A stretch of 64,000 nt of DNA from Xanthobacter sp. YC-JY1. Its GTDB lineage: Bacteria > Pseudomonadota > Alphaproteobacteria > Rhizobiales > Xanthobacteraceae. Shown one piece after another: positions 20,991-53,392 of the stretch. The translations under genes and the position numbers were made by a program. The DNA lies in assembly GCF_021730305.1 (NCBI RefSeq), contig NZ_CP032674.1, forward strand, positions 1,101,001 to 1,165,000. Direction: 5' to 3'. Numbering within the stretch: position 1 is the stretch's first letter; every line of letters begins with the position of its first letter. The notes below the pieces were generated by a model. That model was not told where the DNA came from and did not search any database. It saw only the letters and a list, made by a program, of their open reading frames with translations.

Positions 20991-22025
20991 ATGACGAAGC
21001 CCCCCATCGCCGTGCTCGGGATCGATCTGGGCAAGAATAGCTGCAGCTTGGCAGGTATGGACGCGACCGGTGCCGTGGTTATGCGCAAGCGGCTGACGCG
21101 CGAAGCGATCGTGGCGTTCGCGGCGACGTTGCCGGCATGCGTCATTGCGATGGAGGCGTGTTGCGGCGCGCACTTTCTCGGCCGGACGCTGGCGTTGCAT
21201 GGGCACACGATCCGGCTGATGTCGCCGGAATATGTGCAGCCCTATGTCAAGGCGCAGAAGACCGACGACCGTGACGCCGAGGCGATCGCCGAAGCGGCGA
21301 CACGGCCAACGATGCGCTTTGTCTCGTTGAAGAGCGAAGCTCAGCTCGACCTGCAGATCCTGCACCGGGTGCGGGAGCGGCTGGTGAATGCGCGCACCGC
21401 GCTGATCAACCAGTTGCGGGCGGTGCTGCTCGAGCGCGGCATCGTCCTGCCAAAGGGTCGTGTCAACCTGATGCGTCGCCTCGAAGAGCTCATGGCCGGC
21501 GATCCGGCTGTCAGTGCGCGTACACGCACGTTATTGGCTGACCTCCACAAGGAATGGGCGGGGCTCGACCAAAAGATCAAGGCCTATGACGATGAGCTCG
21601 CCGCGCTGACCCGTGAGGATGAACAGGCTCGGCGACTGGCGACGATCCCCGGCATCGGCGTCATCAACGCAACTGCATTGCTGGCGGCCATCGGCGACGG
21701 GAGCGCCTTCGCCAAGGCAAGGGATCTGGCCGCTTGGCTCGGCCTGACGCCTCGGCAACACTCGACCGGAGGCAAGACGAAACTTCTCGGGAATAGCAAA
21801 CGCGGGAACGGCTATTTGCGCAAGCAGCTGATTCACGGTGCCCGAGCCGCCATGCCGCATCTCGCGGCGAAGCCGAACCCGTTGGGCACTTGGCTGCAGG
21901 CGATGCTGACCCGCGCGCATCCCAATGTCGTGGTCGTGGCGCTGGCGGCGAAGCTGGCGCGCATCGCCTGGGCGGTGTTGCACACGCAGAAAGACTTCGA
22001 TCGGCACGCGCTTGCCGCCGCCTAA
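20991..22025 (+). CDS. IS110/IS1111-family transposase (DEDD recombinase)
   Basis: 344 residues. The N-terminal RuvC-like DEDD domain begins VLGIDLGKNSC (first Asp), with an acidic residue in CVIAMEACCG and the KTDDRDAEAIAEA motif near 100. The C-terminal Tnp_20 domain includes LATIPGIGVINATALLAAIG and the HSTGGKTKLLGNSKRGNGYL segment, which carries the catalytic-Ser region. Enzymes of this family recombine DNA guided by a structured RNA made from the element's own non-coding end. The start follows GGAGAGGACCG. Confidence 0.93.
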   Translation: MTKPPIAVLGIDLGKNSCSLAGMDATGAVVMRKRLTREAIVAFAATLPACVIAMEACCGAHFLGRTLALHGHTIRLMSPEYVQPYVKAQKTDDRDAEAIAEAATRPTMRFVSLKSEAQLDLQILHRVRERLVNARTALINQLRAVLLERGIVLPKGRVNLMRRLEELMAGDPAVSARTRTLLADLHKEWAGLDQKIKAYDDELAALTREDEQARRLATIPGIGVINATALLAAIGDGSAFAKARDLAAWLGLTPRQHSTGGKTKLLGNSKRGNGYLRKQLIHGARAAMPHLAAKPNPLGTWLQAMLTRAHPNVVVVALAAKLARIAWAVLHTQKDFDRHALAAA

Positions 22026-22279
22026 TCGCTCGGAACAGCGGGCGGGAAACGCCGCACGCTCAAGATGTCTGCGAGAGATGAAGTAAAGAGGGCATAACAG
22101 GTCGTACCGGCAGCCTGAAAACCTGATCCTAAATGTGGTGCTCGGCACCGGCGCTTTTATGAGGATCAGGCTGCGCGGATATCCATCTTGGCCAAGGCTT
22201 CAGCCTTGAGACCGGATACGTTGATGCAGACCATCTTGCCATCTTTGACATCCCCCTTGCGGACGGGGCGGGCCATACG
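22026..22279 (+). ncRNA. candidate bridge-RNA region of the IS1111-group element
   Basis: This 254-bp non-coding 3' end is far longer than the 63-bp 5' end. In IS1111-group elements the guide (bridge) RNA is expected in the 3' non-coding end. The position is seen; the RNA itself and its loops are inferred from the family and not folded here. Confidence 0.4.
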
Positions 22280-22282
22280 TTT

Positions 22283-22518
22283 AGGATGTCGCGCTCCTCC
22301 GTCACGCGCTGCAACTCTCGCTTCAGCCGGCCGACCTCAGCGGCCTGACCGTCATCGTGGGCCACGGCAGCAGGCTTGCCGTACTGTTTCCTCCACTCGT
22401 AGAGCGAGTACTTGCTGATCCCCAGCCGGGCCGCCACCTCCGCAACCGGATAGCCCCGTTCGGTGATCTGAACGACCGCGTCGCGTTTGAAGTCCTCGGT
22501 GAAGTTCGCTTTGCCCAT
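22283..22518 (-). pseudogene. IS3-family OrfA (HTH) 5' part, split by IS110 insertion
   Basis: 78 codons of OrfA: FTEDFKRDAVVQITERGYPV, the helix-turn-helix EVAARLGISKYSLYEWRKQYG and the leucine-zipper start LKRELQRVTEERDIL. Its last codons (KAAACFAKDAK, stop at 20891-20893) lie on the other side of the IS110 element. Confidence 0.88.
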
Positions 22519-22667: not shown

Positions 22668-23552
22668 CTAAAACACTTGCAGAAGACGTATTGTGCCCCG
22701 AAGTTCCTCCGGGAAACCTCCCGACGTTGCGACGTCGCGCTGAACTAGGCCCAAGACCTGGAAGGTCGGAGTGATGAACTTGGACAGCTCCAGGCGTGCC
22801 TGACTGCGCTCGGTTGAGTTTCCGGTCGGCATTCCGGCGAGAAATTCCCTCCCGCCCCAAAACTGCGAATAACCGACCGCAGCCGACCAGGAGGGGGCGA
22901 AAGCGTAGGAGAGCCAAGCCTGAAACTGATAGGTGGGATCTTGCGACAGGGTCTGGGTCCCGTTGCCAGCCTTGCTGTTGTCCCCGTACCAGACCACGTC
23001 GCCTGTCAGCTGAAGCGCGAAGCCACTGGTGAGGCCCTGATACCATCCGGCCTGCAGATCCAGCTTCCAGCGGTTCTCACCCAGGTTCAGCACCTCGCCT
23101 GCACTGTACTGGCCGATGGGCAGGAACACATACGGCATGATGCCGATATAGGTCTGCGTCGCCTTGTTGTTCACCACCCAGACCGTGGTCGCGAGGATGG
23201 GATCGCCGAGGCCGGCGGCGGCGTCGAACGGGGCGCCACCGAGCCGGCCGTTGTAGAGGGTGCCGGCGGGGATGAGCACCTGCGGCGCAACCGTGAAGCC
23301 GCCGATGTCGAAGTAATGCACGTAGCGCAGAATATTGACGTAGGAATCAAGGCCGGTGCCATTGGAGATGGTCTGTCCCGAGGCGCTGACATATTCGTCG
23401 CGGGTCGCATACTGGCTGTAGAAGACCAGCAGGTTGGTGCCGGCGGGTGCGGGCAGGTAGTCGCCGGAATTCACGTCGGCAGCCCAGGCGGGCGAGCCGG
23501 CGAGCATGGCGCAGAAGACGGCGAGGACGATGTCCTTGAACGAACGGATCAT
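22668..23552 (-). CDS. outer-membrane channel-like protein, Phenol_MetA_deg family
   Basis: 294 residues with a Sec signal (MIRSFKDIVLAVFCAMLAGS, cleavage after PAWA-AD) and an all-beta mature part: alternating hydrophobic strands, and a C-terminal Phe (LLQVF) typical of outer-membrane barrels. It fits the MetA-pathway/SphA family found beside aromatic and hydrocarbon degradation genes and thought to admit hydrophobic substrates. GGAGGA lies just before the start. It follows the carboxylase operon by about 140 bp on the same strand, so it probably takes up the ketone or its precursor. Confidence 0.82.
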   Translation of the reverse strand: MIRSFKDIVLAVFCAMLAGSPAWAADVNSGDYLPAPAGTNLLVFYSQYATRDEYVSASGQTISNGTGLDSYVNILRYVHYFDIGGFTVAPQVLIPAGTLYNGRLGGAPFDAAAGLGDPILATTVWVVNNKATQTYIGIMPYVFLPIGQYSAGEVLNLGENRWKLDLQAGWYQGLTSGFALQLTGDVVWYGDNSKAGNGTQTLSQDPTYQFQAWLSYAFAPSWSAAVGYSQFWGGREFLAGMPTGNSTERSQARLELSKFITPTFQVLGLVQRDVATSGGFPEELRGTIRLLQVF

Positions 23553-23693
23553 GATTCCTCCAGACTGATTTTTGGGTGATGGACGGCGTTGGCGCGCCGC
23601 GGTGGTCCGCGCCCTGCTGGCGCACGGACATGGAGCCTGCCTGCCCCGGCCGGGCGTGGGCCACGGTCCGGGGTCGCTGGCAGACGGGGTGGC

Positions 23694-24536
23694 TCAGGCC
23701 CGAAGCCGGGCGAGTTGCTGGAGCACGGATTCCGGCTCTGCCCCCTCGGGGATCTCGGCGAAGTAGAACTGGCCGCCACCAAGCGTGGCGAGGGGCCCGC
23801 CGCTCCACAGGTCCCGGCTCACGTCGATGCCGAGGGCGAAGTCCCCACCCGCAACCGGCTCGGTGCTGATGAGGGTGTCGAACTCGCTGGTGGCGCCCCC
23901 GTCACGCCCGCGCAAGGCAAGGCCCCAGCGATAATGCCGAGCAACGTTCACGAGTGGACGGCTCGCATCCATGTCGCCGGCTTCGGCGGCCTGGTCCTCC
24001 TCCAGCAGCAGCCCGCCGATGGGAAGGGCCGAGACCACGCGCACTAGGTCCGCCATATACATGGCGGCGCTCTCGACCATGTCGGCGTCGATGGGGACAC
24101 CCTCCCGCCCGGCGAAGGCTGCGGCCTCGGCGAGCCAGCGCCGGGGAGCGGGGAAGGCAAGCACCAGCGGGGTCTGCCCGCGCAGGCTCGCCGCCACGGC
24201 CTCCACCACCTCCGCCAGTAGCCGGCGGGGATCCTCCTCCTCCAGCATGCGCTTGAGGGGGAAGGCGGCGCGGGATTTCGCCGCCATCTGCGTCTTCAGG
24301 GCAGGATTCCGCTCCACCCAGGAGCGGTAGAGATCGCCCACGTCCACCACGCCCACGTCCGGTCGCAGCAGGCCATGGGCCTGAGTGAAGAAGGAGAGAT
24401 AGCGCGGCGCGCTCTCCCACGGGTCGCCCCCCTCCCCGAGCAGAAGGCGCCGGGCATAGCCCGACGACTTCAGCCAGACCCTGAGTCCGGGCGCGCCGGA
24501 CGGACGCGGCAGGGCATCCACGAGCCGTGGGCTCAT
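23694..24536 (-). CDS. apcE: acetophenone-carboxylase epsilon-like subunit (ApcE-like)
   Basis: 280 residues, about 30 kDa, soluble, with no common domain that I can name. It overlaps the HyuB-like gene by 4 bp (ATGA) and is the fifth gene of the operon, matching in place and size the fifth, more loosely attached subunit of acetophenone carboxylase (about 34 kDa). Internal features are an arginine/leucine-rich N-terminal half (RYLSFFTQAHGLLRPDVGVV) and a C-terminal mixed alpha/beta part with LGGGQFYFAEIPEGAEPE. The assignment rests mainly on synteny and size. Confidence 0.55.
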   Translation of the reverse strand: MSPRLVDALPRPSGAPGLRVWLKSSGYARRLLLGEGGDPWESAPRYLSFFTQAHGLLRPDVGVVDVGDLYRSWVERNPALKTQMAAKSRAAFPLKRMLEEEDPRRLLAEVVEAVAASLRGQTPLVLAFPAPRRWLAEAAAFAGREGVPIDADMVESAAMYMADLVRVVSALPIGGLLLEEDQAAEAGDMDASRPLVNVARHYRWGLALRGRDGGATSEFDTLISTEPVAGGDFALGIDVSRDLWSGGPLATLGGGQFYFAEIPEGAEPESVLQQLARLRA

Positions 24537-26809
24537 TGCTTCTCGCCCCCCATGGCGCCGACGGCGGCAAGACGGGCCTCAAGCTCGGCGATGCGCACAT
24601 CCTTGGGATGCGGCATGTAGTTGGGGCGCGGTGTATCAGCGTCGCGGGTCTTGTGCGGGCTGCCCATGTAGAGGGTCTGGACATCATCGCCCCACGCACC
24701 GAAATACTGCAGGTGGGTCGGCGGCGTGGGCTTGCTCCAGTCCTTCACGAAGTCCGAATACGGCCTGGAGCGGGCGATGCGGGCCTTGCGCTCGGCAGCG
24801 CGCGCCACTTCGGTGGCCACCTCGTCGATGGCGAGGGTCTCGGGGTCGAACGCCACCTTGTAGAGGCGGGCGGCGACCTCCGGGGAGATCAGCCCCTCCT
24901 CGATGTCCTTGATGACGCCCCTTGGGTCGCGCTCCAGCAGGTCGCCGTAGCCGGCGCCTGCCCCCTGCGAGATCATGAACAGCTCGCCGCGCTTCGAGAT
25001 TTCAAAGCCCATGCCCATGTGGTGGGTGGTGTAGCTGGCGCCCTCGAAGGGCTGCTCGTTCATGATCTCCTCGATGGAGTGCTTGAACTTCTCCGGCGTG
25101 TTTTGCAGCACGTCGTAGACATCCACGCCCTTCACCTTGGACAACGGATAGCAGCCGCAGGCATAGCCGCCGAACAGCCCCTGGAGCGGCGGGATCTTGG
25201 CGCCCTGGCAGGTGGTCATGAAGCCCCACTGCTCGCTGTCCTTGGTGGCCACCATCATGGTGTAGCCCTGGCCGCCGCGATACTTGCCCGGCGCGATGGC
25301 ATCGCGTGTCATCTTCTTGGACACGAGCTGGAGGAACGGCACCTCTTCCTCGTTCAGCTCCTGCTCGCCGATGTCGGCCATGGTGGCGAAGATGGGGGCC
25401 AGCGCATGCTCGCCGTCCCGGTCCACGGTGGCGCCGGCGCCCATGCCGTTGAGGTCGGCGCAGAGATTGCCCAGGGTCTCGCCGTGCTGGGACACGCCGC
25501 CCCAGATGAAGGTGTTGATCATGTTGAAGGTCGGGGCGTGGACCTTGGTGAACTTCTCCGGGCAGGAATAGAGGAACTTCGCCACCGCGTGCTGGCCCGC
25601 CGTGAAGCCCGTGAAGATGGACATCAGGCTCTGCGAGTTGGGCGCGTCGTAGGAACAGTTGACGATGGAATGGGGGTCGGTGATGACCTCGATGGGGGCG
25701 AAGGCCGCCTGCCCGCGCGGCAGGTCCGGCCACACGTAACACAGGAACACCTGCGCCAGCATGCCCTTGAGGCCGGCGACGATGGTATTGGTGGCGCGGT
25801 TGGTGAATTCCGGCGCGGAGCCGCGGAAATCGAAGATCAGCCGGTCGCCGGTCTTGGTCAGCTTGCAGTTGATCTTCACCACGCAGTTCTCGCGCAGGGT
25901 TGAGTCCTGGATGATGTAGGTGCGCACCGTCATGTCCGGCCACTCGGAAATGCGGCGCTTCACCTCGGCGCGCACATTCTCCATGGTCAGGCGCAGGGTG
26001 GAGATGAGGGCCTCCGGGCCGTCGGTGTTCAGCGTCTCCTCGATGCGCTGCTTGATGCGCAGGCAGGCGAACAGCTTCACCTTCATGTCTTCATATTGCA
26101 GCTTGGGCTCGCGCACCGAATTCTGTAGGAAGGTGAGGATATCGCGCTTGATCTGGTAGTTCTCGACCACGCGGAAGGGCGACATCTTCAACCCCTCGTC
26201 GGACGGGCTCTCCGCCATGGACGGCATGCCGCCCGGCTCGATGGCGCCGTTCTCTCCCTCATGCACGGTGGAGGCCACCCAGCACACGAGCTTGCCGTTG
26301 TGGAAGATGGGCACGATCATGGACTGGTCGGTATTGTGGACGTTGCCGTAGCGGCTGTCGTTGTGGATGAAGCCGTCGCCTTCCCGCACCCCGACGGTCG
26401 GATCATTCATCCAGTTCTTGATGATGAACTTGATGGGGTGGTGCACCAGCGCCGAGAAGATCAGCACGCCGCCGGCGGAGGCGATGGCCAGATCGCCGGA
26501 GGCCGAATACACGCCGGTGATCACGTCGCCCCATTTGGCGCCGGGGGCGGCGCCCATCTGCTCCACCATCTCGTAGCCTTCGTCGCAGCCGGCCTGGATG
26601 CGATCGCGGATCTTGGCGATGATGTGGCTGTCGGCCACCTTGGTAATGGCCTCTTCCTCGTCTGCCGTGCGCGGCATGAGGTCGTGGTTCTGCATGATCT
26701 CGGGGTCGGGGCCGAGGAACAAGGTGGTGTCGTTCAGGAACTTCCGGACCAGGGCGGCCTCTTCGGCGCTGGGCAGCTTGCCGCGGCCGGCGATGCTCAT
26801 GTCGTTCAT
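24533..26809 (-). CDS. apcD: HyuB-type carboxylase subunit (ApcD-like; acetone/acetophenone carboxylase family)
   Basis: 758 residues from ATG 26809, which has GGGAGGA about 8 nt upstream. It belongs to the hydantoinase-B/acetone-carboxylase-alpha fold: GDGFIHNDSRYGNVHNTDQS (a metal-binding-type segment in this family), STLRENCVVKINCKL, FDFRGSAPEFTNRATNT and SKKMTRDAIAPGKYRGGQG are all family landmarks. In these enzymes this subunit joins the activated ketone and carboxyphosphate/CO2. The sequence differs clearly from the acetone carboxylase AcxB I recall, and the five-gene setting favours an acetophenone-type enzyme. The frame upstream of 26809 lacks family features. Confidence 0.75.
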   Translation of the reverse strand: MNDMSIAGRGKLPSAEEAALVRKFLNDTTLFLGPDPEIMQNHDLMPRTADEEEAITKVADSHIIAKIRDRIQAGCDEGYEMVEQMGAAPGAKWGDVITGVYSASGDLAIASAGGVLIFSALVHHPIKFIIKNWMNDPTVGVREGDGFIHNDSRYGNVHNTDQSMIVPIFHNGKLVCWVASTVHEGENGAIEPGGMPSMAESPSDEGLKMSPFRVVENYQIKRDILTFLQNSVREPKLQYEDMKVKLFACLRIKQRIEETLNTDGPEALISTLRLTMENVRAEVKRRISEWPDMTVRTYIIQDSTLRENCVVKINCKLTKTGDRLIFDFRGSAPEFTNRATNTIVAGLKGMLAQVFLCYVWPDLPRGQAAFAPIEVITDPHSIVNCSYDAPNSQSLMSIFTGFTAGQHAVAKFLYSCPEKFTKVHAPTFNMINTFIWGGVSQHGETLGNLCADLNGMGAGATVDRDGEHALAPIFATMADIGEQELNEEEVPFLQLVSKKMTRDAIAPGKYRGGQGYTMMVATKDSEQWGFMTTCQGAKIPPLQGLFGGYACGCYPLSKVKGVDVYDVLQNTPEKFKHSIEEIMNEQPFEGASYTTHHMGMGFEISKRGELFMISQGAGAGYGDLLERDPRGVIKDIEEGLISPEVAARLYKVAFDPETLAIDEVATEVARAAERKARIARSRPYSDFVKDWSKPTPPTHLQYFGAWGDDVQTLYMGSPHKTRDADTPRPNYMPHPKDVRIAELEARLAAVGAMGGEKQ

Positions 26810-26859
26810 GGGTTTATCCTCCCGGATTATCTCAGGTGATCGCAGCGCCATGGGGCGCG

Positions 26860-26884
26860 CTCTCCCCGCGCGGGGCGGGGAGAG
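26860..26884. repeat. hairpin in the apcC-apcD gap
   Basis: CTCTCCCC (26860-26867) and GGGGAGAG (26877-26884) form a GC-rich stem inside the operon, in the 83-bp gap between the second HyuA-like gene and the HyuB-like gene. It could act as an mRNA stability or partial-termination element tuning subunit ratios. Function is inferred. Confidence 0.4.
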
Positions 26885-26892
26885 AAACGGCG

Positions 26893-29049
26893 TCAGTGCG
26901 TGGTGGCGGGGATCTTCGCGCGCAGGAACCAGGAGGCCCCCTGCTTTGCCGCCACGAAGCTCCAGCCCGGATTGACCAGGAAGGTGGTCACCTCCGATGC
27001 GATGATGGCCGGGCCCTCGATCTGGACACCGGGACCGATATCGGCGCGGCTCCACACCGGCGTCTCCAGCGGGCCGTCCTGGCCCACGAAGTGGCACACG
27101 CGGCTCGCCGCGGGTGGCGGCGGCGCCTTGCGCTCGATCTCGGGCACCGGCTTGATGTCCTCGAACTGCACGGTCTCGTGCTGGACATAGGCGGCGATGC
27201 GGATGGTGTTGATGCGGATGCCCGCCTCCGGCGCCTGCGAGCCCTCGCCGAAGCGCTTGCCGTAGTCCGCCGAGAACTGGGAGATGATGGCGAGCACGTC
27301 CGCCGGGCCGTCCACCGCGTGCTTCTCGATCACCGCCGTGGTCTGCACCAGCTGGTTGCCGTAGCGCATGTCCAATTCGAGGTTGTGGCGGATGTCTGCG
27401 GGCGGAACGCCCTGGCGCAGCAGGTCCTGGGTGCCCCGCTCCTTCAGGTCGGCGACGATGGCGTTGAAGCGGTCATAGTCGTCGAACAGGGCGCGGGTGT
27501 TGCTGTCGTAGAGCACCATGTAGAGCGACTGCTCATGGATATGGAGCTGGTGCATGTTACCGGCGCCCACCGCGGAGAACACCGAGGAGAGCGGCGGCGC
27601 CAGGATGCGGTCGATGTTGAGGTTCTGGGCGATGCCGCAGCAGTGCAGCGGGCCGTTGCCGCCGTAGGCGAGCATGGTGAAGTCCTTGGGGTCGTAGCCC
27701 CGGGCGCGCAGCTCGGTGAACAGGCCGTTGGCCATGTTGTCGTCCACCTTCTCGCGGATCAGCAGCGCCGCCTCGATCACCGAGCAGTCAAGCTCGTCGC
27801 ACAGGGTATCCTCGATGGCCCCCCTGGCCCGGCGCGGGTTGAGTGGGATGGAGCCGCCCGCATAGTTCGCCGGGTCGAGATAGCCGAGCAGAAGGTCGGC
27901 GTCGGTCACGGTGGGCCGCATGCCGCCCCGGTCGTAGCAGGCGGGGCCGGGGTCGGACCCGGCGCTCTCCGGGCCGCACTTCACGGTCTTGTACATGCGG
28001 TCATAGGAGGCGATGGAGCCGCCGCCGGCGCCCAGCGTCACCAGGTGCACCATGGGCACCGAGACCAGCCAGCGATCGATCACCGGATTGAAGTCGTAAT
28101 GCTTCACGCCGCCGTCCACCACGATGCCGATGTCGTAACTGGTGCCGCCCATGTCAGTGGCCACCACATTGCCGAGCCCGGTGAGCATGGCCAGGTGCTC
28201 GGAGGCGCCAATGCCGGAGACCGGGCCGGAATGGATGGTCTGCAACGCGTCGGTGGAGTTGAGCTGCGCCATGCCGCCGGAATTGTGGATCACCAGCATG
28301 GGCTTGTCGTAGCGATGGGCGCGCAGGTTCTGCTCCAGCGCCGAGAGCGCATGGTACATGGTGGAGTGCAGATAGCCGTCCACGATGGCCGAGGTGGCGC
28401 GGACATACTCGCCTTTGCGCCCCGCCACCTGGTGGGACAGGATGACCGGGATGGCGCCGAGCAGGTGGGAGGGATACTCCTCGAGGATGATCTCCTCGAT
28501 GCGCTGCTCGTGCGCGGGGTTCACCACGGCGTTCACCAGCGCCACCACGATGATCTGGGCGCCGCGGTTCACCAGCTCGCGGATCTGGGTGCGCACGTCC
28601 TCCTCGTCGAGGGGCATGACGCGCTTGCCCTGGAAATCGAGCCGCTCGCGCACGCCACGGATCATGTGCGCCTCCACCAGCGGATCGGGGCGCTGGGCGT
28701 TTGGCATGTCCTGCTGGCCGAGATTGTCCAGCCCCTCGCCATAGCCGCGGGCGCGGCTGAGCGGCACGGTGGCCTCGTAGCCAGCGGTCACCAGCATGCC
28801 GATCCTGGGGCCCTTGTGCTCGATGAGCGCGTTGGTGCCGAGGGTGGTGGCATAGCGCACGCTGTCCACGGCGCTGAGGATCTCCTCAAGGTCGAGCCCC
28901 AGCACGTTGCAGGCCTTGCCGAGGGCCTCGTTGAACCCCATGGCGAGGTTATGGTGGGTGGTGAGGGCCTTGGCCTCGATATACTGCCTGTCCCAGACCA
29001 CGAAGCAGTCGGTGAAGGTGCCGCCGATGTCCACGGAAACGCGTTTCAT
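26893..29049 (-). CDS. apcC: HyuA-type ATP-binding carboxylase subunit (ApcC-like)
   Basis: 718 residues, about 78 kDa. It has the ASKHA-fold ATPase layout of hydantoinase A/acetone carboxylase beta: N-terminal phosphate motif VDIGGTFTDCFV, then YATTLGTNALIEHKGPRIG, the second motif NVVATDMGGTSYDIGI, and VTLGAGGGSIASY, SAGSDPGPACYDRGG and LAYGGNGPLHC. It should phosphorylate the enolised ketone or bicarbonate with ATP. GGGAGGA precedes the start. It is third in the operon, after the small zinc protein. The larger of the two HyuA-like subunits here, it keeps all expected nucleotide-binding motifs. Confidence 0.8.
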   Translation of the reverse strand: MKRVSVDIGGTFTDCFVVWDRQYIEAKALTTHHNLAMGFNEALGKACNVLGLDLEEILSAVDSVRYATTLGTNALIEHKGPRIGMLVTAGYEATVPLSRARGYGEGLDNLGQQDMPNAQRPDPLVEAHMIRGVRERLDFQGKRVMPLDEEDVRTQIRELVNRGAQIIVVALVNAVVNPAHEQRIEEIILEEYPSHLLGAIPVILSHQVAGRKGEYVRATSAIVDGYLHSTMYHALSALEQNLRAHRYDKPMLVIHNSGGMAQLNSTDALQTIHSGPVSGIGASEHLAMLTGLGNVVATDMGGTSYDIGIVVDGGVKHYDFNPVIDRWLVSVPMVHLVTLGAGGGSIASYDRMYKTVKCGPESAGSDPGPACYDRGGMRPTVTDADLLLGYLDPANYAGGSIPLNPRRARGAIEDTLCDELDCSVIEAALLIREKVDDNMANGLFTELRARGYDPKDFTMLAYGGNGPLHCCGIAQNLNIDRILAPPLSSVFSAVGAGNMHQLHIHEQSLYMVLYDSNTRALFDDYDRFNAIVADLKERGTQDLLRQGVPPADIRHNLELDMRYGNQLVQTTAVIEKHAVDGPADVLAIISQFSADYGKRFGEGSQAPEAGIRINTIRIAAYVQHETVQFEDIKPVPEIERKAPPPPAASRVCHFVGQDGPLETPVWSRADIGPGVQIEGPAIIASEVTTFLVNPGWSFVAAKQGASWFLRAKIPATTH

Positions 29050-29154
29050 GTGTCCTCCCAGAGGATGCTGGCGGGCGCGTCGCGCCGCATTCGTTCTGCT
29101 GTGGGGATGGGGCCGCCGCGTTCCGCGCGGGGATGGGGCGGCACCATCGAAGCT

Positions 29155-29553
29155 TCAGTGGCCGTGGCCGTCGTCACGCACCACGGCCGGGCCGGCATAG
29201 GGTGCCGCTGCCTCGCCGCGGGCGGCCCATTGGGCCTTGAGCGCATCGAGATCGACTTCCATGTCGTGGAGCGGCGGGTGGCCGGGCACGGCATATTCGG
29301 TCTCGACCTGGGTGCCGCAGCTGGGGCAGCAATATTCGAGGATGCGCACCCACTCCGGATCGGGACTGAAGGTGAAGCGATACTTGTCCGGATCGAGGAT
29401 CGGCGGATGGATCTCGCGCGGATCGCGATCGTGGACCAGAAGGCCTTCCTTGTAGTTGCCTCGCGCCGGCGCAATCTCGTGATCGCACACGCGGCATTCC
29501 CACCTCTCCGACGTCAGGTTGATGCGGAGATATTCGGTCATGGCGACTTTCAT
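29155..29553 (-). CDS. apcB: small zinc-motif subunit (acetone carboxylase gamma / ApcB-like)
   Basis: 132 residues from ATG 29553 (GGGAGGA 9 nt upstream; a TTG at 29562 is the alternative). Two Cys pairs, WECRVCDHE near 20 and EYCCPSCGTQ near 75, form a zinc ribbon as in the gamma subunit of acetone carboxylase and the 15-kDa subunit of acetophenone carboxylase. YLRINL and KEGLLVHDRDPREIHPPI are further family-like segments. It follows the first HyuA-like gene directly and precedes the second. Confidence 0.78.
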   Translation of the reverse strand: MKVAMTEYLRINLTSERWECRVCDHEIAPARGNYKEGLLVHDRDPREIHPPILDPDKYRFTFSPDPEWVRILEYCCPSCGTQVETEYAVPGHPPLHDMEVDLDALKAQWAARGEAAAPYAGPAVVRDDGHGH

Positions 29554-29558
29554 GTTTT

Positions 29559-31490
29559 TCAATCCTCCCGGCTCAGCAGGATGTCGCCTGCATCGCTGAT
29601 GACGAACTGCCAGTTTTCAGGGACCCGGCAGGTGAAATAGTCTTCCTCAAGGATGGCGGGGCCGGACGCGAAGTCGCCATCCGCAAGGTCGGCGAGACGG
29701 TAGACCGGCACGTCAATGCGCCCGCGATCACGGATCAGCACGTTGCGCTTGCCATGGGCTGCGGCCGACGAGCGGGGCGCGAAGCGAGCCGACTGCTCCG
29801 CGCCTGCGCGCAGGCTGCGGACCGCCTTCAGTTCCACTTCCACCGAGCGGGCCCCGGCGAAGGCGGCCGGCACCTCCAGCTGGTCGCCGAGCACGTGGAC
29901 CAGCGTGCGCCCGTCCCCGAAGTCGGCGACGAGGCGTGTATCGAGGGTGTAGGTGCCGTCGGAGCAGCCTTCCGCGAACATGTCGCGGGACGCCTTCACC
30001 TTCAGCGCCGCGATGGTGCCGGAAAGCTCGGCGGCATCGCTCAGCGTCACCGCATAGCGCTGGGAGACATCGCAGGAGCCGATGCCGTAGGCCGAGAACA
30101 CTGCCGCCATCTGCGGGATCGCCACCCGGCGAATGCCCGCCTTCTCGGCGATGCCGCAGGCGTTGAGGGGGCCTGCGCCGCCGAAGGCGAGCATCACCGT
30201 CTCGTCGGAGATCTTGGTGAAGCGGTGAAGCTCCGCCGCGATCTTCTCCTCATAGGCAAATTCCATGCGCAGCAGCGCATCATCGAGCCCGAGCCCCAGC
30301 CGGCTGGCGACGCTGGCGGTCACCGCCGCCGCCGCGCGGTCCGCGTCGAGCCCCATGCCGCCGCCGAAATAGGAGGTGGGATCGAGCAGGCCGATGAGCA
30401 GGCTGGCGTCGGTGATGGTGGCCTCGCGCCCGCCGCGCCCGAAGCAGGCCGGCCCCGGAACCGCGCCGACGCTCTCCGGCCCGATGACGATGCGCCCGTC
30501 CACCACCTTGAAGATGGAGGAGCCGCCCGCCCCCGCGCTCAGGATCTCGCACAGGGGGAAGGAGACGGAGATGCCTTCCACATGACCGCGCCGCACCTCG
30601 GCCACCGTGCCGTCGATGTACTGGCCGATATCCGTGGTGGTGCCGCCCACGTCGATGGAAACGGTGTCGGCGAAGCCGTAGCGGCGCGAGAACGACTTCA
30701 CGCCCTCCATGCCGCCGCGCGGACCGGACGAATAGGTCTTGATGGCGATGGTCTTGGCCACGCGCGAGGCGTCGCCGTCATTGCGGAAGATGAGCAGCGG
30801 ATTCTTGGTGCGATAGGCCCGCAGCCGGTTCTCCGCATTGTAGAGGAACGCCTCCATGGAAGGGTGGAGGAAGGAGTTGATGAGCGCGGTCCAGGTGCGC
30901 CGCTCGCCATCCGGGTCGGTGGTGAGATCGGAGCCGTAGAGGATCGGCACGGCGCCGAGCAGGTGGCGCGGATACTTGCGCAGGGCGACAAGGCGGAAGT
31001 CGTTCTCCAGCGCCTGGAAATCGGCGCCCCCGAAGCTCACCACCAGGCGGTTGGCGCCGGCGGCGGTGAGGGTGTTGATGGCCTTCGCCACCGCCACGTC
31101 CGCCTCGTCGGCGCTGATGGCCGCGGCATCGAGGAAGGCGATCCGGTCGCCCACAAGGGCCTCGAACACATCCTGGTCGTGCGCCGCGAGGCGGCTCGGC
31201 AGGTCGTGCGCGGATGCATCGAGGATGAGGCCGAGCCGGGGCCCCTTGCGCTCGCAGATCGCGTTGGTGCCCTGGGTGGTAGAATAGCGGATGAGGTCCA
31301 CCTCCTCCAGCAGGCGCTTCACATCCGGCGCGCCGTAGAGCACGCCGGAAGCCTTGGTCAGGCCCTCGAAGAAGCACTTGCTGAGATCATAAGGCGTGGT
31401 GAGGACCTTGGTCTTTCTCACCGCATCATCTGACAGAATACAGATGTCCGTCAGCGTGCCGCCGTTGTCGATGTTGATTTGCAGGGACAT
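29559..31490 (-). CDS. apcA: HyuA-type carboxylase subunit (ApcA-like)
   Basis: 643 residues, about 69 kDa, from ATG 31490; GGAGGAG lies upstream. ASKHA landmarks: INIDNGGTLTDICI at the N-terminus (Asn replaces the usual hydrophobic residue after Asp), IRYSTTQGTNAICERKGPR, the second phosphate motif SIDVGGTTTDIGQY and SAGAGGSSIFKV, VGAVPGPACFGRGG and LAFGGAGPLNACGI. It is shorter than its 718-residue paralogue two genes downstream; having two different HyuA-like subunits is the mark of acetophenone carboxylase, whereas acetone carboxylase has one. It is first in the operon, about 110 nt after a sigma54 promoter. Confidence 0.75.
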   Translation of the reverse strand: MSLQINIDNGGTLTDICILSDDAVRKTKVLTTPYDLSKCFFEGLTKASGVLYGAPDVKRLLEEVDLIRYSTTQGTNAICERKGPRLGLILDASAHDLPSRLAAHDQDVFEALVGDRIAFLDAAAISADEADVAVAKAINTLTAAGANRLVVSFGGADFQALENDFRLVALRKYPRHLLGAVPILYGSDLTTDPDGERRTWTALINSFLHPSMEAFLYNAENRLRAYRTKNPLLIFRNDGDASRVAKTIAIKTYSSGPRGGMEGVKSFSRRYGFADTVSIDVGGTTTDIGQYIDGTVAEVRRGHVEGISVSFPLCEILSAGAGGSSIFKVVDGRIVIGPESVGAVPGPACFGRGGREATITDASLLIGLLDPTSYFGGGMGLDADRAAAAVTASVASRLGLGLDDALLRMEFAYEEKIAAELHRFTKISDETVMLAFGGAGPLNACGIAEKAGIRRVAIPQMAAVFSAYGIGSCDVSQRYAVTLSDAAELSGTIAALKVKASRDMFAEGCSDGTYTLDTRLVADFGDGRTLVHVLGDQLEVPAAFAGARSVEVELKAVRSLRAGAEQSARFAPRSSAAAHGKRNVLIRDRGRIDVPVYRLADLADGDFASGPAILEEDYFTCRVPENWQFVISDAGDILLSRED

Positions 31491-31611
31491 ACGCTCTTTC
31501 TCCTCCCACGTCTTCTCCGGCTGCGGCTTCATGCGTCGGCAGGCCCGGGCGCGCCGCAGCGGCACTCGCGGCCAGGTCGACACACGGTCCGCAAGGCTCC
31601 CGCAACGGATC

Positions 31612-31627
31612 GCAAGGGGCGTGCCAA
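31612..31627 (-). promoter_or_regulatory. sigma54 (-24/-12) promoter of the apc operon
   Basis: On the minus strand TTGGCACGCCCCTTGC matches the consensus TGGCACG-N4-TTGC at every defined position, with correct GG-to-GC spacing. It faces apcA, with the predicted transcript start about 110 nt before the start codon. A sigma54 activator gene lies immediately upstream. Confidence 0.85.
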
Positions 31628-31721
31628 GAGGAGAAAGGCAGGTGGCGTCTCGACTATTGTTTATTTGCGCTGAATTTTGACGCCGGCGCTTTTTCTGGGG
31701 GTTGAGGCATCGACGTCTTTA

Positions 31722-31742
31722 CGAATGCCTGTTCGAAAATCG
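31722..31742. promoter_or_regulatory. possible activator site upstream of the apc promoter
   Basis: The words CGAATGC (31722-31728) and GAAAATCG (31735-31742) occur together about 100-115 bp upstream of the -24 element, and occur together again at 34286-34310 upstream of the GTPase promoter. Distance and pairing suit an enhancer site for the AcoR/AcxR-type activator. Not proven. Confidence 0.35.
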
Positions 31743-31800
31743 GTCTTTATTGTGCGACGCGATGAACGCAGGGCGTGCGCCGCACCATGTCCGCGCAGAC

Positions 31801-31832
31801 AAAAAAACACCGCCGATCGAGACCGGCGGTGT
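31801..31832 (-). terminator. rho-independent terminator of the sigma54 activator gene
   Basis: Perfect 9-bp stem ACACCGCCG / CGGCGGTGT with an 8-nt loop, followed on the minus strand by seven or more Ts (the A run at 31801-31807). It separates the activator transcript from the apc operon. Confidence 0.85.
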
Positions 31833-31915
31833 GGAGGAAGCTTTCGGGAGGGATGCGAAAGCCGATGCTTTCAAGCAATCGGCGTGCCGGACAGGTGCAA
31901 GTTGTGGACCGGGGC

Positions 31916-33955
<2,040 letters not shown>

Positions 33956-34274
33956 ATTTGTCCTCCCCCGGCGGGCTCCATGAGCCGGCCGGTGTGCCGC
34001 CACCCGGGCAGATCTGCTGTCTGCGTTTTCGTGGGCGGACTTTTCTCTTCGGTCTTGTGGTCTTGAGTCTTGTGGTCTTCGGTCTGTGATAGCCGCGGTG
34101 CGAACCCGCTCCGGCCTACTCCATTTGAAGCAACAACGGCCTGCGCCTCGCCGCTGCAAGGTCATCATGCCTGGGAGTGAGCTTAGCATCGATCATGCCA
34201 TGCCGCACGCCCTTCAGGTATCGAGACTTCCCGCGTTTCCGCCCCGGCGCAACCTTGCGGAAGGCGCACTACGC

Positions 34275-34314
34275 CGTTCGATTTTCGAATGCGACGGCGA
34301 CTGAAAATCGAACG
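34275..34314. promoter_or_regulatory. 12-bp inverted repeat, candidate enhancer site
   Basis: CGTTCGATTTTC (34275-34286) and GAAAATCGAACG (34303-34314) are perfect inverted repeats 16 bp apart, lying 43-82 bp upstream of the -24 element. The size and place suit a binding site for a dimeric sigma54 activator. There is no T tract, so it is not an obvious terminator. Confidence 0.5.
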
Positions 34315-34356
34315 CCTTCGACCCGCTTGGGACACCACGGGCAGGCTTTGCCCCGG

Positions 34357-34371
34357 TGGCACGGGCGTTGC
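34357..34371 (+). promoter_or_regulatory. sigma54 promoter of the COG0523 GTPase gene
   Basis: TGGCACGGGCGTTGC matches TGGCACG-N4-TTGC fully. The predicted start of transcription is about 40 nt before ATG 34422, which also argues for that start codon. Confidence 0.82.
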
Positions 34372-34421
34372 TGCGCTCCCGCGACATCCCAGCGCTGCCG
34401 GCGCCCGCTGCGAGACCGCCC

Positions 34422-35633
34422 ATGACCGAACACGATCCCATCGACCCGCGCATCCCCGTCACCGTGCTCACCGGCTTCCTCGGCGCCGGCAAGACCACGC
34501 TGCTCAATCGCCTCGTCACCCATCCGGAGATGGCCGGTACCGCGCTGCTCATCAACGAATTCGGCGCCGTGGGTATCGACCACCAGTTGGTGGAGCAGAG
34601 CGGCGAGACCATGGTGCTGCTCGGGTCCGGATGCGTGTGCTGCACCGTGCGCGGCGATCTCGTGGCGGCTCTCGAAACGCTCCATGACAAGCTCGCGCGG
34701 CGGCAGATCCCGCAGGTGCGCCGCGTGGTGATCGAGACCACCGGCCTTGCCGATCCCATACCGGTGGTCTGGACCCTGATGGAGCAGCGTTACGTCGCCG
34801 CCCGCTTCCGCTGTGACGGCGTCGTCACGCTGGTGGACACCGGCCTTGGCGCCGAGCAACTGGACCGGAACGAGGAGGCGCGCCGCCAGGTGGGCATGGC
34901 CGACCGCATCCTCCTCACCAAGGCGGACCTTGCCGATCGTAGCGCCCGCGAGCAGCTCGATGCCCGGCTCGACGTGCTCAATCCGTCGGCTCCGCGCCTT
35001 GCCGTGACCCATGGCGAGATCGAGCCCCGGCGCATCCTGGGCGCCGGACTTTATGCGCCGGGCAGCCTGCCGGCGGAGGTGGAGCGCTTTGTGGCCGAGA
35101 CGGAAGCCGCCGCCCGCGCCGGCGAGGCCCCGCCCTCCGCCCATGGGGCGCAGGCGCTGCCGGTGAGCTTCACCTGCTTCTTCAACCATCAGGTGCCCTG
35201 GCGCGGCTTCGCGGTGGCCATGGGAGAGATTCTCGCCAAATACGGATCGCACCTGCTGCGGATAAAGGGGCTGATGAACGTGGCCGGCCTCGGCGCACCG
35301 GTGGTGGTGCAGTGCGTGGAACAGGTCGCCTATCCCCCGGTGCGCCTGCCGCGCTGGCCGAAGGAGGGCACGCGCTTCGACATGCGGGGACGGCTCGTGT
35401 TCATCGTCCGTAACCTGCCGGAGGCAGCCATCGACGACATCCGCCGCCGCCTCGCCGACCTGCCCGGTGACGCTGTCGCCCTGCGGGCGGCCGCAACCGC
35501 TCCCCTGCTGCCGACGCGCTGCTGGCTCAGCGCCCGCATGCCGGTGCAGGGCCGCAGCCGCTTCGAGACCGACGCCTGGCACATCAATTCCGTGAGGCTG
35601 GGCAAGGGCCGGCCCGCCGTTGCCTCCTCGTGA
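34422..35633 (+). CDS. CobW/COG0523-family metal-chaperone GTPase
   Basis: 403 residues. Walker A LTGFLGAGKTTLLN (about 15-28), the metal-binding CXCC motif GSGCVCCTVRGDL near 68, Walker B-like IETTGLADP and the guanine motif LLTKADLAD mark the family; a C-terminal CobW_C domain follows. Relatives deliver Zn, Co or Fe to target enzymes. It has its own sigma54 promoter matching that of the carboxylase operon, so it probably supplies or inserts the metal needed by the carboxylase or the zinc alcohol dehydrogenase. The GTG upstream (34356) is rejected because the promoter overlaps it. Confidence 0.85.
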   Translation: MTEHDPIDPRIPVTVLTGFLGAGKTTLLNRLVTHPEMAGTALLINEFGAVGIDHQLVEQSGETMVLLGSGCVCCTVRGDLVAALETLHDKLARRQIPQVRRVVIETTGLADPIPVVWTLMEQRYVAARFRCDGVVTLVDTGLGAEQLDRNEEARRQVGMADRILLTKADLADRSAREQLDARLDVLNPSAPRLAVTHGEIEPRRILGAGLYAPGSLPAEVERFVAETEAAARAGEAPPSAHGAQALPVSFTCFFNHQVPWRGFAVAMGEILAKYGSHLLRIKGLMNVAGLGAPVVVQCVEQVAYPPVRLPRWPKEGTRFDMRGRLVFIVRNLPEAAIDDIRRRLADLPGDAVALRAAATAPLLPTRCWLSARMPVQGRSRFETDAWHINSVRLGKGRPAVASS

Positions 35634-35665
35634 AGCCGCGCGGCGACACCGCTCGCGGCCTCGCC

Positions 35666-36837
35666 TCACTTCACCGGCTCAAGCACGCTCACATAGTTCG
35701 CCACCGCTGAGCCACCCATGTTCCGCCAAGGCTGGCACCGGGAACCTGCATGTCGCCGGCGGTACCGGTGAGCAGCATGGCGGACAGGACGTGCATGGAC
35801 ACGCCGGTGGCGCCGATGGGGTGGCCCTTCGCCTTGAGGCCGCCGGAGACGTTCACCGGGAGGCGGCCGCCACGGGCCACCGTTCCATCCTCCAGCACCC
35901 GCGCGCCCTGCCCTTCCGGAGTGAGCCCCATGGCCTCGTAGGCCAAAAGCTCCGCGATGGTGAAGCAGTCGTGGACCTCGGCAAATGAGAGATCGCCGAC
36001 CACTATGCCGGCCTCCGCGAAGGCCGCGGCGAAGGCGCGTCGCGGTCCCTCGAAGCGCACTGGATCGCGGCGCGACATGGGCAAAAGGTCGTTCACCTGC
36101 GCCCGGGCACGAATGCGCACGGCGCGCTGTGCCTCGCCGATGAGATCGTCGGATGCGAGCACCACGGCCGCCGCGCCGTCCGAAACCAGCGAGCAGTCGG
36201 TCTTGCGCAGCGGCCCGGCAATGACCGGGTTCTTCTCCGAGACGGTATTGCAGAATTCGAAATCGAGCGCCTTGCGCATCTGCGCGAAGGGGTTGGACAC
36301 ACCGTTGGCGTGGTTTTTCACCGCGATCTTCGCCAGCGCCTGCGCATGGTCGCCATAACGCTCGAAATAGGCGCCGGCGATCTCCCCGAAGATGGACGGG
36401 AAGGTCTTGCCGCAGTTCGCCTCCTCCTTGACGTAGGAGGCCGAGCCGAGGATGCGCGTCACCTCCTCGCCGGAGACCGCGGTCATCTTCTCCGCACCCA
36501 CCACGAGGGCGAGGCGCGCACGGCCGGACTGGATGGCGTCACAGGCGGCGAAGATGGCCCCGGCCCCGGAGGCACAGGCGTTCTCGACCCGCGTCGCCGG
36601 CTTCCAGCGCAGACCCGGCTCGCCATTCATGGGCAGGGACGAGCAGAAGATCTCCGGCACGAAACCGCCGTTGAGATTGCCGAGCCAGACGCCGTCCATG
36701 CGCTCGGCCGGGAAGCCGGAATGAACCAGCGCTTCGTGGCAGACCGCTGCGATGAGCGCCTCCATGTCCATGTGAGCCAGCCGGCCGAAGGGCGAATGGC
36801 CCCAGCCGACGATGGATACTGCGTTGCCAAGCTTCAT
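35666..36837 (-). pseudogene. thiolase-family acyltransferase, frameshifted near the 3' end
   Basis: The gene reads well from ATG 36837 (AGGA upstream) as a thiolase/SCP-x-type enzyme: active-site Cys in RVENACASGAGAIFAACDAI near 88, AEVHDCFTIAEL, and LKAKGHPIGATGVSMH with the catalytic His. Near 35724 the frame slips: GGCGGAACATG where family members need GGN-MGG. One extra A would restore an ending MGGSAVANYVSVLEPVK with a stop at 35666. As read, the product ends TWVAQRWRTM (stop 35689) and loses the conserved final glycine loop. It would cleave a beta-ketoacyl-CoA, fitting the ketone pathway. Sequence error and true decay cannot be told apart here. Confidence 0.78.
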
Positions 36838-36881
36838 GATGCGTCCTGCCGCTGTCGCGTCGTCGTTGCGCCGGCGCTCCT

Positions 36882-36896
36882 GCACCGTGCGTGCCA
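36882..36896 (-). promoter_or_regulatory. sigma54 promoter of the thiolase gene
   Basis: On the minus strand TGGCACGCACGGTGC: a complete -24 element (TGGCACG) and TGC at -12 with correct spacing, one mismatch to TTGC. It lies about 45 bp before the thiolase start. Confidence 0.68.
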
Positions 36897-37040
36897 CCGC
36901 GTGGCCCTCGCTGGGAGAAGCGTGGCCGCCCCCAAGGGAGCACTCCAAGCGACCGAAATCCGTCCGCGGGAGTAGCAATTGCGGACAGCATGGCAGCCCC
37001 ACCGGACGGGAGAAGCATGCGAATGCGCGGCCTTCAGCCG

Positions 37041-37055
37041 TGGCATCTGTTTTGC
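37041..37055 (+). promoter_or_regulatory. sigma54 promoter of the alcohol dehydrogenase gene
   Basis: TGGCATCTGTTTTGC: GG and GC are correctly spaced, TTGC is perfect, and the -24 box differs from consensus at two positions. It lies about 75 bp before ATG 37130. Confidence 0.65.
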
Positions 37056-37129
37056 CGAGGAGGCGGCGCGGAAAGCGGCCGTTGTCCCGCGTGCCGCCAA
37101 TTCAACGACACTGGAAAGGGAGATCCCTC

Positions 37130-38164
37130 ATGAAGGGTCTGGTCTATCGTGGCCCCGGCAAGAAGGCGCTGGAGGAAGTGCCGCATCCGCGGATCGAGCA
37201 GCCTACCGACGCCGTGGTGAAGATCCTGCGGACGACCATATGCGGCAGCGACCTGCACATCCTGAAGGGCGACGTGCCCACCGTGAAGCCCGGCACCGTG
37301 CTCGGCCACGAGGGCGTCGGCGTCATCGAGGAGGTTGGCCAGGCGGTCTCGGCCTTCAGGAAAGGGGACCATGTCCTCATCTCCTGTATCTCATCCTGCG
37401 GGCGCTGTGAGTACTGCAAACGCGGCATGTATTCCCACTGCTCCGTCGCCGGCTGGATGCTCGGCCACACCATCCACGGAACGCAGGCCGAATATGTCCG
37501 CATCCCCTTTGCGGACACCTCCCTGCATCGCATCCCAGACGGCATGGACGAGGAAGCCCTCGTCATGCTCAGCGATATCCTGCCCACCGGCTTCGAGTGC
37601 GGCGTGCTGAACGGCAAGGTGCAGCCCGGCAGCACGGTAGCCATCGTGGGGGCAGGGCCCGTGGGCCTCGCGGCGCTCCTCACCGCGCAATTCTACTCCC
37701 CCGCCGAGATCATCATGATCGATCTCGACGACAACCGCCTGGAAGTCGCCCGGACCTTCGGCGCCACGCAGACGGTCAACAGCGGCCGCGAGAATGCGGT
37801 CGAGCGGGTCATGGCCCTGACCGGCGGCATCGGCGTGGACACTGCAATCGAGGCGGTCGGCATTCCCGCCACCTTCGTGCTGTGCCAGGACATCGTGGCT
37901 CCCGGCGGCACTATCGCCAATGTGGGGGTCCACGGCACCAAGGCCGACCTCCACCTCGAACGCTTGTGGGCTCACAACATCACCCTGACCACCCGGCTGG
38001 TGGATACGGTGACGACGCCGATGCTGCTGAAGACGGTGCAGTCGAAGAAGCTCGATCCGCAAAAGCTGATCACCCATCGCTTCGCCCTCGCCGACATCCT
38101 CGAAGCCTACGAGACATTCGAGAAGGCCTCGCAGACGAAGGCCCTCAAGGTCATCATCGGATAG
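37130..38164 (+). CDS. zinc-dependent secondary-type alcohol dehydrogenase
   Basis: 344 residues of the medium-chain dehydrogenase family. Catalytic zinc ligands include Cys38 (TTICGSDLH) and the GHEGVG His/Glu. The structural zinc lobe has four Cys in CGRCEYCKRGMYSHC (about 95-110). The Rossmann motif is AIVGAGPVGLAAL, with an Asp (MIDLDDNR) favouring NAD+. It would oxidise an alcohol such as 2-propanol or 1-phenylethanol to the ketone used by the carboxylase. AAAGGGAG precedes the start, and the sigma54 promoter upstream ties it to the same activator. The exact alcohol is inferred from context. Confidence 0.85.
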   Translation: MKGLVYRGPGKKALEEVPHPRIEQPTDAVVKILRTTICGSDLHILKGDVPTVKPGTVLGHEGVGVIEEVGQAVSAFRKGDHVLISCISSCGRCEYCKRGMYSHCSVAGWMLGHTIHGTQAEYVRIPFADTSLHRIPDGMDEEALVMLSDILPTGFECGVLNGKVQPGSTVAIVGAGPVGLAALLTAQFYSPAEIIMIDLDDNRLEVARTFGATQTVNSGRENAVERVMALTGGIGVDTAIEAVGIPATFVLCQDIVAPGGTIANVGVHGTKADLHLERLWAHNITLTTRLVDTVTTPMLLKTVQSKKLDPQKLITHRFALADILEAYETFEKASQTKALKVIIG

Positions 38165-38177
38165 CGCGAAGAGGAGC

Positions 38178-53391: not shown

Positions 53392-53392
53392 C

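Follow-up and report, generated by a model that had tools for sequence, protein, structure and literature searches.

What is encoded by five adjacent genes of Xanthobacter sp. YC-JY1 whose products resemble subunits of ketone carboxylases as well as ATP-dependent hydrolases? The genes lie in the window analyzed here, a stretch of 64,000 nucleotides corresponding to positions 1,101,001–1,165,000 of a 5.39-Mb single contig, and a preliminary description had assigned them to the five-subunit layout of acetophenone carboxylase (Apc) rather than to the three-subunit layout of acetone carboxylase (Acx). As argued below, we consider it likely that the operon specifies a five-subunit ketone carboxylase of the Apc type that works without biotin and belongs to a separate branch, with the pathway and regulation that we propose. 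The Apc-type five-subunit enzyme is a known kind; what is new is the separate Apc-like branch, in clade I of which a gene for a CobW-family GTPase mostly lies nearby.

Subunits and active-site residues

The five genes are, in order of transcription (aa, amino acids):

29559..31490, minus strand: alpha' subunit (HyuA-like, 643 aa; ApcA-like), putative bicarbonate kinase; best matches ApcA (325 bits, cut-off 1250) and 5l9w_b; ATP motifs intact
29155..29553, minus strand: gamma subunit (132 aa, Acetone_carb_G; ApcB-like) with four Cys
26893..29049, minus strand: alpha subunit (HyuA-like, 718 aa; ApcC-like), putative ketone kinase; 541 bits to 5l9w_B; fingerprint RERLDFQG at position 134
24533..26809, minus strand: beta subunit (HyuB-like, 758 aa; ApcD-like); metal site D95, H158, D161, H183
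23694..24536, minus strand: epsilon subunit (280 aa), predicted (AlphaFold2 and Foldseek) to have the fold of ApcE and uroporphyrinogen decarboxylase (URO-D); 4-base overlap with the end of the beta gene

All five open reading frames (ORFs; 643, 132, 718, 758 and 280 aa) are present and co-directional between 31490 and 23694 in the order first described, with spacings of 5, 105 and 83 bases from alpha' through gamma and alpha to beta. Pfam assigns the first four proteins to Hydantoinase_A (twice), Acetone_carb_G and Hydantoinase_B; the 280-aa protein has no family match in Pfam or NCBIfam. The ratio of nonsynonymous to synonymous substitution rates is 0.05–0.26 for each of the five against four named Xanthobacter loci, so we regard all of them as real genes. 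A genome scan with the gamma subunit gave 540 relatives, the best 80 of which were kept as named loci. The five genes occur on one strand and in identical order in 72 of these 80; in 7 further loci the missing gene is truncated by, or lies beyond, the end of the contig, whereas one locus (L157) gave no detectable epsilon. An additional gene is inserted between beta and epsilon in L159. Among the 70 loci assigned below to clade I, five lack epsilon as the contig stops within the beta gene, and one lacks alpha' likewise. The alpha subunit is found at 94–100% in 9 of 14 same-genus genomes, the window's own genome counted; the other 47 genomes of this search gave no match above 37% among the matches listed.

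Compared with solved structures, alpha scores 541 bits to 5l9w_B versus 284 to acetone carboxylase, and beta 273 bits to 5l9w_A versus 141; the best matches of alpha' and gamma are 5l9w_b (290 bits) and 5l9w_C (113 bits). The first four proteins are thus closest to Apc subunits and the fifth resembles ApcE by fold, which upholds the Apc layout originally proposed. The four NCBIfam equivalog cut-offs for ApcA–D are not reached (325/1250, 133/250, 581/1500 and 321/1500 bits; 21–53% of the cut-offs).

Enzymes of the Apc type are described as having the gene order apcABCD(E), a fingerprint R/KERiDsxG in alpha and not in alpha', a short gamma subunit with four Cys, and ATP motifs in both alpha and alpha' (PMC5214803); the fifth subunit is absent from some operons of this type (PMC5214803). 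The window operon has this gene order. Its alpha fingerprint, RERLDFQG, retains R, E, R and D in 63/63 branch members used, and inspection of alpha' by eye revealed no such fingerprint. The gamma subunit has 132 aa (129 in Apc, 168 in Acx), and its Cys20, Cys23, Cys76 and Cys79 are conserved in 84/84 sequences. ATP motifs are found in both alpha and alpha', those of alpha' (DNGGTLTD, DVGGTTTD and PGPA) being intact, and the ATP and metal residues are invariant among the sequences used (81 of 84 for beta, 84 of 84 for gamma, and 31 sequences for alpha'). In beta, D95, H158, D161 and H183, present in 81/81 sequences, correspond to the metal tetrad reported from Acx, Apc and caprolactamase (PMC8453981, PMC5543143). 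Acx is distinguished by three genes, no alpha', no epsilon and a gamma about 50 aa longer, and hydantoinases and 5-oxoprolinases by two genes (hydAB) and no gamma; the operon has neither composition.

The phosphate motifs are exactly as first quoted, DNGGTLTD in the first HyuA-like protein and DIGGTFTD in the second. The suggestion that Asn signals a new role was not borne out, because the motif is published as DxGGT (PMC5214803) and all 27 alpha' subunits of the branch that were examined have Asn at x, where two true ApcA have Thr. As judged by these sequences, the Asn is a marker of the branch; different roles for alpha and alpha' have already been proposed in Apc itself (PMC5214803).

A departure from Apc concerns the seven residues proposed to form the ketone pocket of ApcC. 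These are T, I/V, H, P, I (V in two), H and L in 63/63 branch members used (63 of 84 sequences; the 21 skipped have a stop within the matched stretch), compared with L, F, N, P, I, Q and T in two Apc, and L, I, V, P, M, A and M in most of 11 Acx. Five of seven residues therefore differ from ApcC, His taking the place of the Asn and of the Gln found in Apc. Scores far under the ApcA–D cut-offs, together with these five differences, rule out assignment to acetophenone carboxylase proper.

The AlphaFold2 model of epsilon (pLDDT 92.4; alignment of 39 homologues) was compared with the Protein Data Bank using Foldseek. The first three matches are ApcE (9fou; best E 3e-7, TM 0.64, 16% identity), followed by uroporphyrinogen decarboxylases, and epsilon is accordingly predicted to fold like both. 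We found no sequence homology between epsilon and ApcE; with sequence and profile comparisons failing, the predicted fold is the only link. A literature search on acetophenone carboxylase and ApcE found no publication on 9fou, which was released in December 2025; the one later paper among the results is a Listeria study. The epsilon family reaches Rhodococcus (175–183 bits) and, weakly, a haloarchaeon (17 bits); no relative turned up when viral contigs were scanned with epsilon.

The branch and its characterized relatives

Alpha identity divides the named loci into clade I (70 loci, 79% or more) and clade II (10 loci). In a tree that took 17 of the 70 clade I loci and omitted four hydantoinase rows (L001–L004), clades I and II form one group with a support of 100, which joins Apc and Apc-like sequences at a Shimodaira–Hasegawa-like approximate likelihood ratio (SH-aLRT) of only 82, with Acx and hydantoinases apart at 98, as obtained by a quick method that flagged long branches. 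The branch is widespread in proteobacteria and separate from acetophenone carboxylase proper. Related genes are carried by plasmids of Rhodococcus (RHA1 pRHL2, DK17 pDK2 and R. qingshengii), Cupriavidus necator N-1 and Halorientalis; annotations of the Rhodococcus and Halorientalis records show the five-gene order, and thiolase and alcohol dehydrogenase genes adjoin the set on the R. qingshengii plasmid. An apc1-4 cluster reported from Rhodococcus ruber (PMC6498646) is a possible further member. The gamma gene of Rhodococcus BH4 and 008 (L240; hits H52 and H53) is matched as two separate pieces and carries no annotation, so that these copies may be broken.

Most named relatives belong to genera known as aerobic, two Geobacter assemblies being exceptions. 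An aerobic setting is not unusual for such an enzyme: Aromatoleum aromaticum also uses Apc aerobically (PMC4729919).

Apc of A. aromaticum EbN1 (5L9W core; 9FOU ApcE) and the window operon are alike in gene order, the five subunit types, gamma size and Cys residues, alpha fingerprint, two ATP sites, metal tetrad and predicted epsilon fold, with global identities of 34% (alpha'), 39.5% (alpha), 30% (beta) and 22% (epsilon, not significant). They differ in five of the seven pocket residues and in CobW, which lies near the window operon; moreover, EbN1 Apc has a predicted two-component system (PMC4729919) whereas the window operon has a sigma-54 activator, and the latter has no adjoining ligase gene. 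AcxABC of Xanthobacter autotrophicus (5SVB, 5M45) shares the superfamily, metal site, gamma domain and a related sigma-54 activator, but has three subunits, lacks alpha' and epsilon, and has no CobW gene that could be found near 20/20 loci. An ordinary acetone carboxylase is also encoded by the window's genome (2,001,910–2,007,270), and its alpha subunit is 29% identical to that of the window.

Two of the Rhodococcus five-gene sets predict beta, alpha and gamma subunits of 86, 77–78 and 16–17 kDa. These sizes are near those of the GTP-dependent acetone carboxylase of Rhodococcus rhodochrous B276, reportedly described by Clark and Ensign in 1999 with subunits of 85, 74 and 16 kDa and C3 to C6 ketones as substrates. 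That enzyme is said to give only three bands, as against five genes in the Rhodococcus sets, and the match of predicted with reported sizes is a lead only.

Neighboring genes, regulation and metal supply

The operon is accompanied by the following features:

31611..31626, minus strand: sigma-54 -24/-12 promoter, TGGCACGCCCCTTGCG, 121–136 bases before the alpha' start; also read directly
31916..34189, minus strand: sigma-54-dependent activator, AcxR/AcoR-like (GAF, Sigma54_activat, HTH_8); true start probably within the ORF
34356..35633, plus strand: CobW-family GTPase (Pfam) with CxCC motif, putative metallochaperone; start uncertain
35689..36837, minus strand: thiolase (PRK07516 type; 645.7 bits, cut-off 412); start taken as Met56 of ORF 35689–37002
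37130..38164, plus strand: zinc alcohol dehydrogenase; homology from residue 106–107 of ORF 36812–38164
22668..23552, minus strand: outer-membrane protein, Phenol_MetA_deg family (Pfam), last gene of the block below; retained in Xanthobacter loci
22668..38171, no strand assigned: 15.5-kb collinear block common to Xanthobacter genomes in differing surroundings (blastn of the window versus Xanthobacter loci)

On a sigma-54 consensus the promoter scores 14.5/15, a value reached by none of 50 shuffles; among 76 upstream regions, 31 score at least 14/15 (mean 12.9 versus 10.8 for shuffles). Of 17 Acx loci, 11 have a regulator beside acetone carboxylase that matches the sensor half of the activator (33–53% identity); no match to it was found in the other 6 or in either true Apc locus (two examined). 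Among regulators adjoining clade I genes, sensor identity ranges from 33% to 79%. Of the 52 long clade I loci, 11 (L091, L092, L094, L101, L109, L234 and others) have a second rpoN beside CobW.

The CobW protein matches PF02492 (cobW nucleotide-binding domain, 157.5 bits) and PF07683 (CobW_C, 50.5 bits) and contains GCVCC, an instance of CxCC, a motif of the CobW family. Of the 52 clade I loci at least 18 kb in length (long loci), 47 have a CobW gene nearby at an identity of at least 40%, upstream or downstream and in both orientations. Of the five misses, L141 has a 39.8% match, and L126, L129, L135 and L153 have none. No clade II locus (0/10) has CobW at this threshold, one 35.1% match (L157) being counted as none, nor was CobW found near 20/20 Acx, 2/2 true Apc and 4/4 other Apc-like loci. 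The Acx control comprised 18 loci together with L082 and L083, for which the E-value limit was 1e-5, additional CobW queries were used and identity had no lower limit; many of these loci are closely related to one another, and some are short (L231, 10 kb; L082 and L083, 14–15 kb). The Fisher p of the association, 1.7e-13, is computed as though the genomes were independent of one another, but they are related. Since ten genomes examined have 4–12 CobW-domain genes each, chance proximity would amount to about a few percent.

Based on these observations, CobW probably loads the carboxylase metal, although two acetone carboxylases are reported to acquire metal in vitro without chaperones (PMC10865871). 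Searches of the literature found no link between acetone carboxylase and CobW, the passages of one paper that name both placing CobW genes, unlinked, in the core genome, and nothing joining hydantoinase, CobW and ketone; on plasmid pCMU01 no CobW is annotated within 15 kb of Acx in a gene table that is incomplete. A ZIP metal transporter gene is found near 7 of 52 long clade I loci. A ZIP-family gene (one copy tested) follows epsilon in L117, L120, L123, L124, L126, L129, L132, L134, L139 and L153, a placement pointing to metal supply. Other recurrent neighbors are clusters c15 (no family match), c24 (YlqF) and c30 (BNR repeats), of which c15 and c30 also adjoin Acx.

The block at 22668–38171 holds the outer-membrane gene, the five carboxylase genes and the genes for the activator, CobW GTPase, thiolase and alcohol dehydrogenase, and thus exceeds the unit first described. 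It aligns at 93.7% over 15594 columns in L075 and at 97.1% over 15527 in L078, with ends matching within a few bases; other Xanthobacter loci match in pieces. The thiolase part is missing from the congener L076 (G011; 5249–7322 and 12490–14761), where the beta and activator genes match as two pieces each, and in G012 (L078, 10571–12725) the alpha gene is split across two frames at about codon 267. The flanks differ among the Xanthobacter stretches fetched, with exceptions: G003 has a stretch resembling window 189–3691 (74–76%) about 10 kb past the dehydrogenase end, and L076 and L169 have 65–70% matches to transporter and dehydrogenase genes of the window.

Adjoining the block, and outside it, are genes of an integrated plasmid or integrative and conjugative element (ICE):

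38285–48377: plasmid or ICE remnant with type IV secretion system coupling protein, DUF3363 relaxase, ParA and RPA replication initiator
38719–40698: coupling protein
40723–42525: relaxase-like gene
44854–45507: ParA
45504–46664: RPA replication initiator

The proposed association of the operon with an ICE was not supported. The block ends are sharp and ICE-like genes do not adjoin the block in the other Xanthobacter stretches fetched; given these sharp ends and other surroundings in congeners, we reject the view of the operon as ICE cargo. Transposase-like ORFs (IS3- and IS110-like by eye) flank the left end of the block (window 19860–22518). Elsewhere in the window, 52660–60108 holds a branched-chain-type ABC transporter, a 3-hydroxyacyl-CoA dehydrogenase and a short protein related to the beta-keto acid cleavage enzymes (342 bits against a cut-off of 430), and 6886–16360 a separate catabolic cluster with ABC transporter, aldehyde dehydrogenase, amidohydrolase and FAD oxidoreductase genes.

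Proposed pathway, substrate and significance

From the computed anatomy, predicted fold, conservation, pocket differences and neighbors we infer the catalytic steps, the role of CobW, the parts played by dehydrogenase and thiolase, and the substrate. The dehydrogenase, whose closest solved relatives are 5yln (a zinc-containing alcohol dehydrogenase), then 4cpd and isopropanol dehydrogenases, would oxidize a secondary alcohol to the ketone. By analogy with the scheme for Apc (PMC5214803), alpha would phosphorylate the enol form of the ketone to a phosphoenol ketone, and alpha' would phosphorylate bicarbonate to carboxyphosphate. The activated substrates would be joined in a complex of beta (metal site, probably loaded by the CobW GTPase), gamma (Zn ribbon) and epsilon (URO-D-fold barrel, presumably required for coupling), where epsilon, with its predicted decarboxylase fold, may serve as the coupling chamber. 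The resulting beta-keto acid would be activated with CoA by an enzyme encoded elsewhere (in some relatives a CoA-transferase or ligase) and then cleaved by the adjacent thiolase. Transcription would start from the sigma-54 promoter via the AcxR-like activator.

That the product is a beta-keto acid is suggested by the thiolase, CoA-transferases and acetoacetate-CoA ligase in the neighborhood: genes for 3-oxoacid CoA-transferase A and B, which pass their cut-offs, occur close to 13 and 14, respectively, of the 52 long clade I loci, and in clade II 4 of 10 loci have an acetoacetate-CoA-ligase-like gene behind epsilon, the one copy tested, from Zavarzinia, scoring 803 bits (cut-off 521). No acyl-CoA ligase was found within the window's block. 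The earlier remark that the ketone may differ from acetophenone is probably right, with indirect support from the pocket residues and neighboring genes. The most likely substrate, with chances that we put at about even, is an aliphatic ketone of small size, whether acetone, butanone or a longer methyl ketone; we regard an aromatic ketone as improbable. Both the branch operon and Acx were found in 15 of 30 relatives examined (chosen from the 80 named loci, mostly isolates, with drafts that may miss genes), and no Acx-type gamma in the other 15; where both occur, the substrate is likely other or wider than acetone.

Several observations weigh against an Apc-type carboxylase of aliphatic ketones. 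Support for the fork uniting the branch with Apc is only 82 by SH-aLRT, and epsilon has no match to EbN1 ApcE by sequence or profile comparison (hhalign probability 5.6%). The dehydrogenase is under every specific NCBIfam cut-off (best: scyllo-inosose and threonine dehydrogenases); thiolase, dehydrogenase and CoA-transferase are near only 13, 8 and 13–14 of 52 long clade I loci; and the regulators beside clade I genes in L116 and L141 are only 33–39% like the window's sensor. Acetone alone would be redundant because the genome already encodes an acetone carboxylase. Finally, clade II loci with a short-chain dehydrogenase (SDR) and an AMP ligase resemble acetophenone-type pathways, some hosts are aromatic degraders by name, and the family name of the outer-membrane gene refers to phenol degradation.

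The alternative that survives best, though we think it unlikely, is a second acetone carboxylase for metal or nucleotide conditions other than those of the three-subunit enzyme. The 15 of 30 branch genomes without an Acx-type gamma would fit this, as would the ligase-like genes that 4 of the 10 clade II loci have next to epsilon, downstream of it, the presence of CobW and a regulator sensor akin to those beside Acx; but the other 15 genomes, and Xanthobacter, carry both enzymes, and the pocket differs from that of Acx at five of seven positions.

Still more doubtful is a functional acetophenone carboxylase, or one for substituted acetophenones, that has diverged in sequence only. All best solved homologues are indeed Apc subunits, epsilon is predicted to fold like ApcE, and in clade II Aromatoleum toluclasticum (L163) has SDR and acyl-CoA-ligase-like genes and Solimonas (L159) an SDR gene, which recall Ped and Bal of EbN1 (PMC4729919). 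However, the four core subunits reach only 21–53% of the equivalog cut-offs, five of seven pocket residues differ, with His where Apc has Asn and Gln, the regulator is AcxR-like rather than the two-component system predicted in EbN1 (PMC4729919), and the window's block has no acyl-CoA ligase.

A further alternative is an ATP-dependent hydrolase that has gained additional subunits, of the hydantoinase, oxoprolinase or lactamase type. It shares the superfamily (alpha scores 280 bits to N-methylhydantoinase and 278 to the 5-oxoprolinase 6yra) and, in caprolactamase, the metal tetrad (PMC8453981), but is highly improbable given that two genes, with gamma lacking, are reported for such hydrolases (PMC5214803), that alpha scores 541 bits to ApcC and that the neighbors process beta-keto acids; because of subunit make-up and neighbors we reject the hydantoinase type. 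The HpeCBA/Acv acetovanillone carboxylases were dropped as relatives, HpeCBA being reported as biotin-dependent.

We thus return to the Apc-type ketone carboxylase of a separate branch. An extended form of this proposal, which we hold to be unlikely as a whole, is that the branch makes up a class of its own, consisting of aliphatic ketone carboxylases of broad range that would require a dedicated CobW for their metal, use epsilon as a chamber for CO2 and phosphoenol ketone and, through the Rhodococcus relatives, explain the GTP-dependent enzyme of B276. For annotation, an "acetone carboxylase subunit gamma" accompanied by two HyuA-like proteins and one HyuB-like protein does not denote an acetone carboxylase. 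In 2017, Apc was described as the sole biochemically characterized member of its branch, with the role of its fifth subunit then unknown (PMC5214803). The operon of Xanthobacter sp. YC-JY1 belongs to a well-bounded, widespread and probable sister branch present in culturable organisms (Xanthobacter, Azotobacter, Zoogloea and Celeribacter, with related sets in Rhodococcus), which offers a natural comparison for the pocket residues that set ketone choice, for a URO-D-fold epsilon in C–C bond formation and for the need for a metallochaperone.

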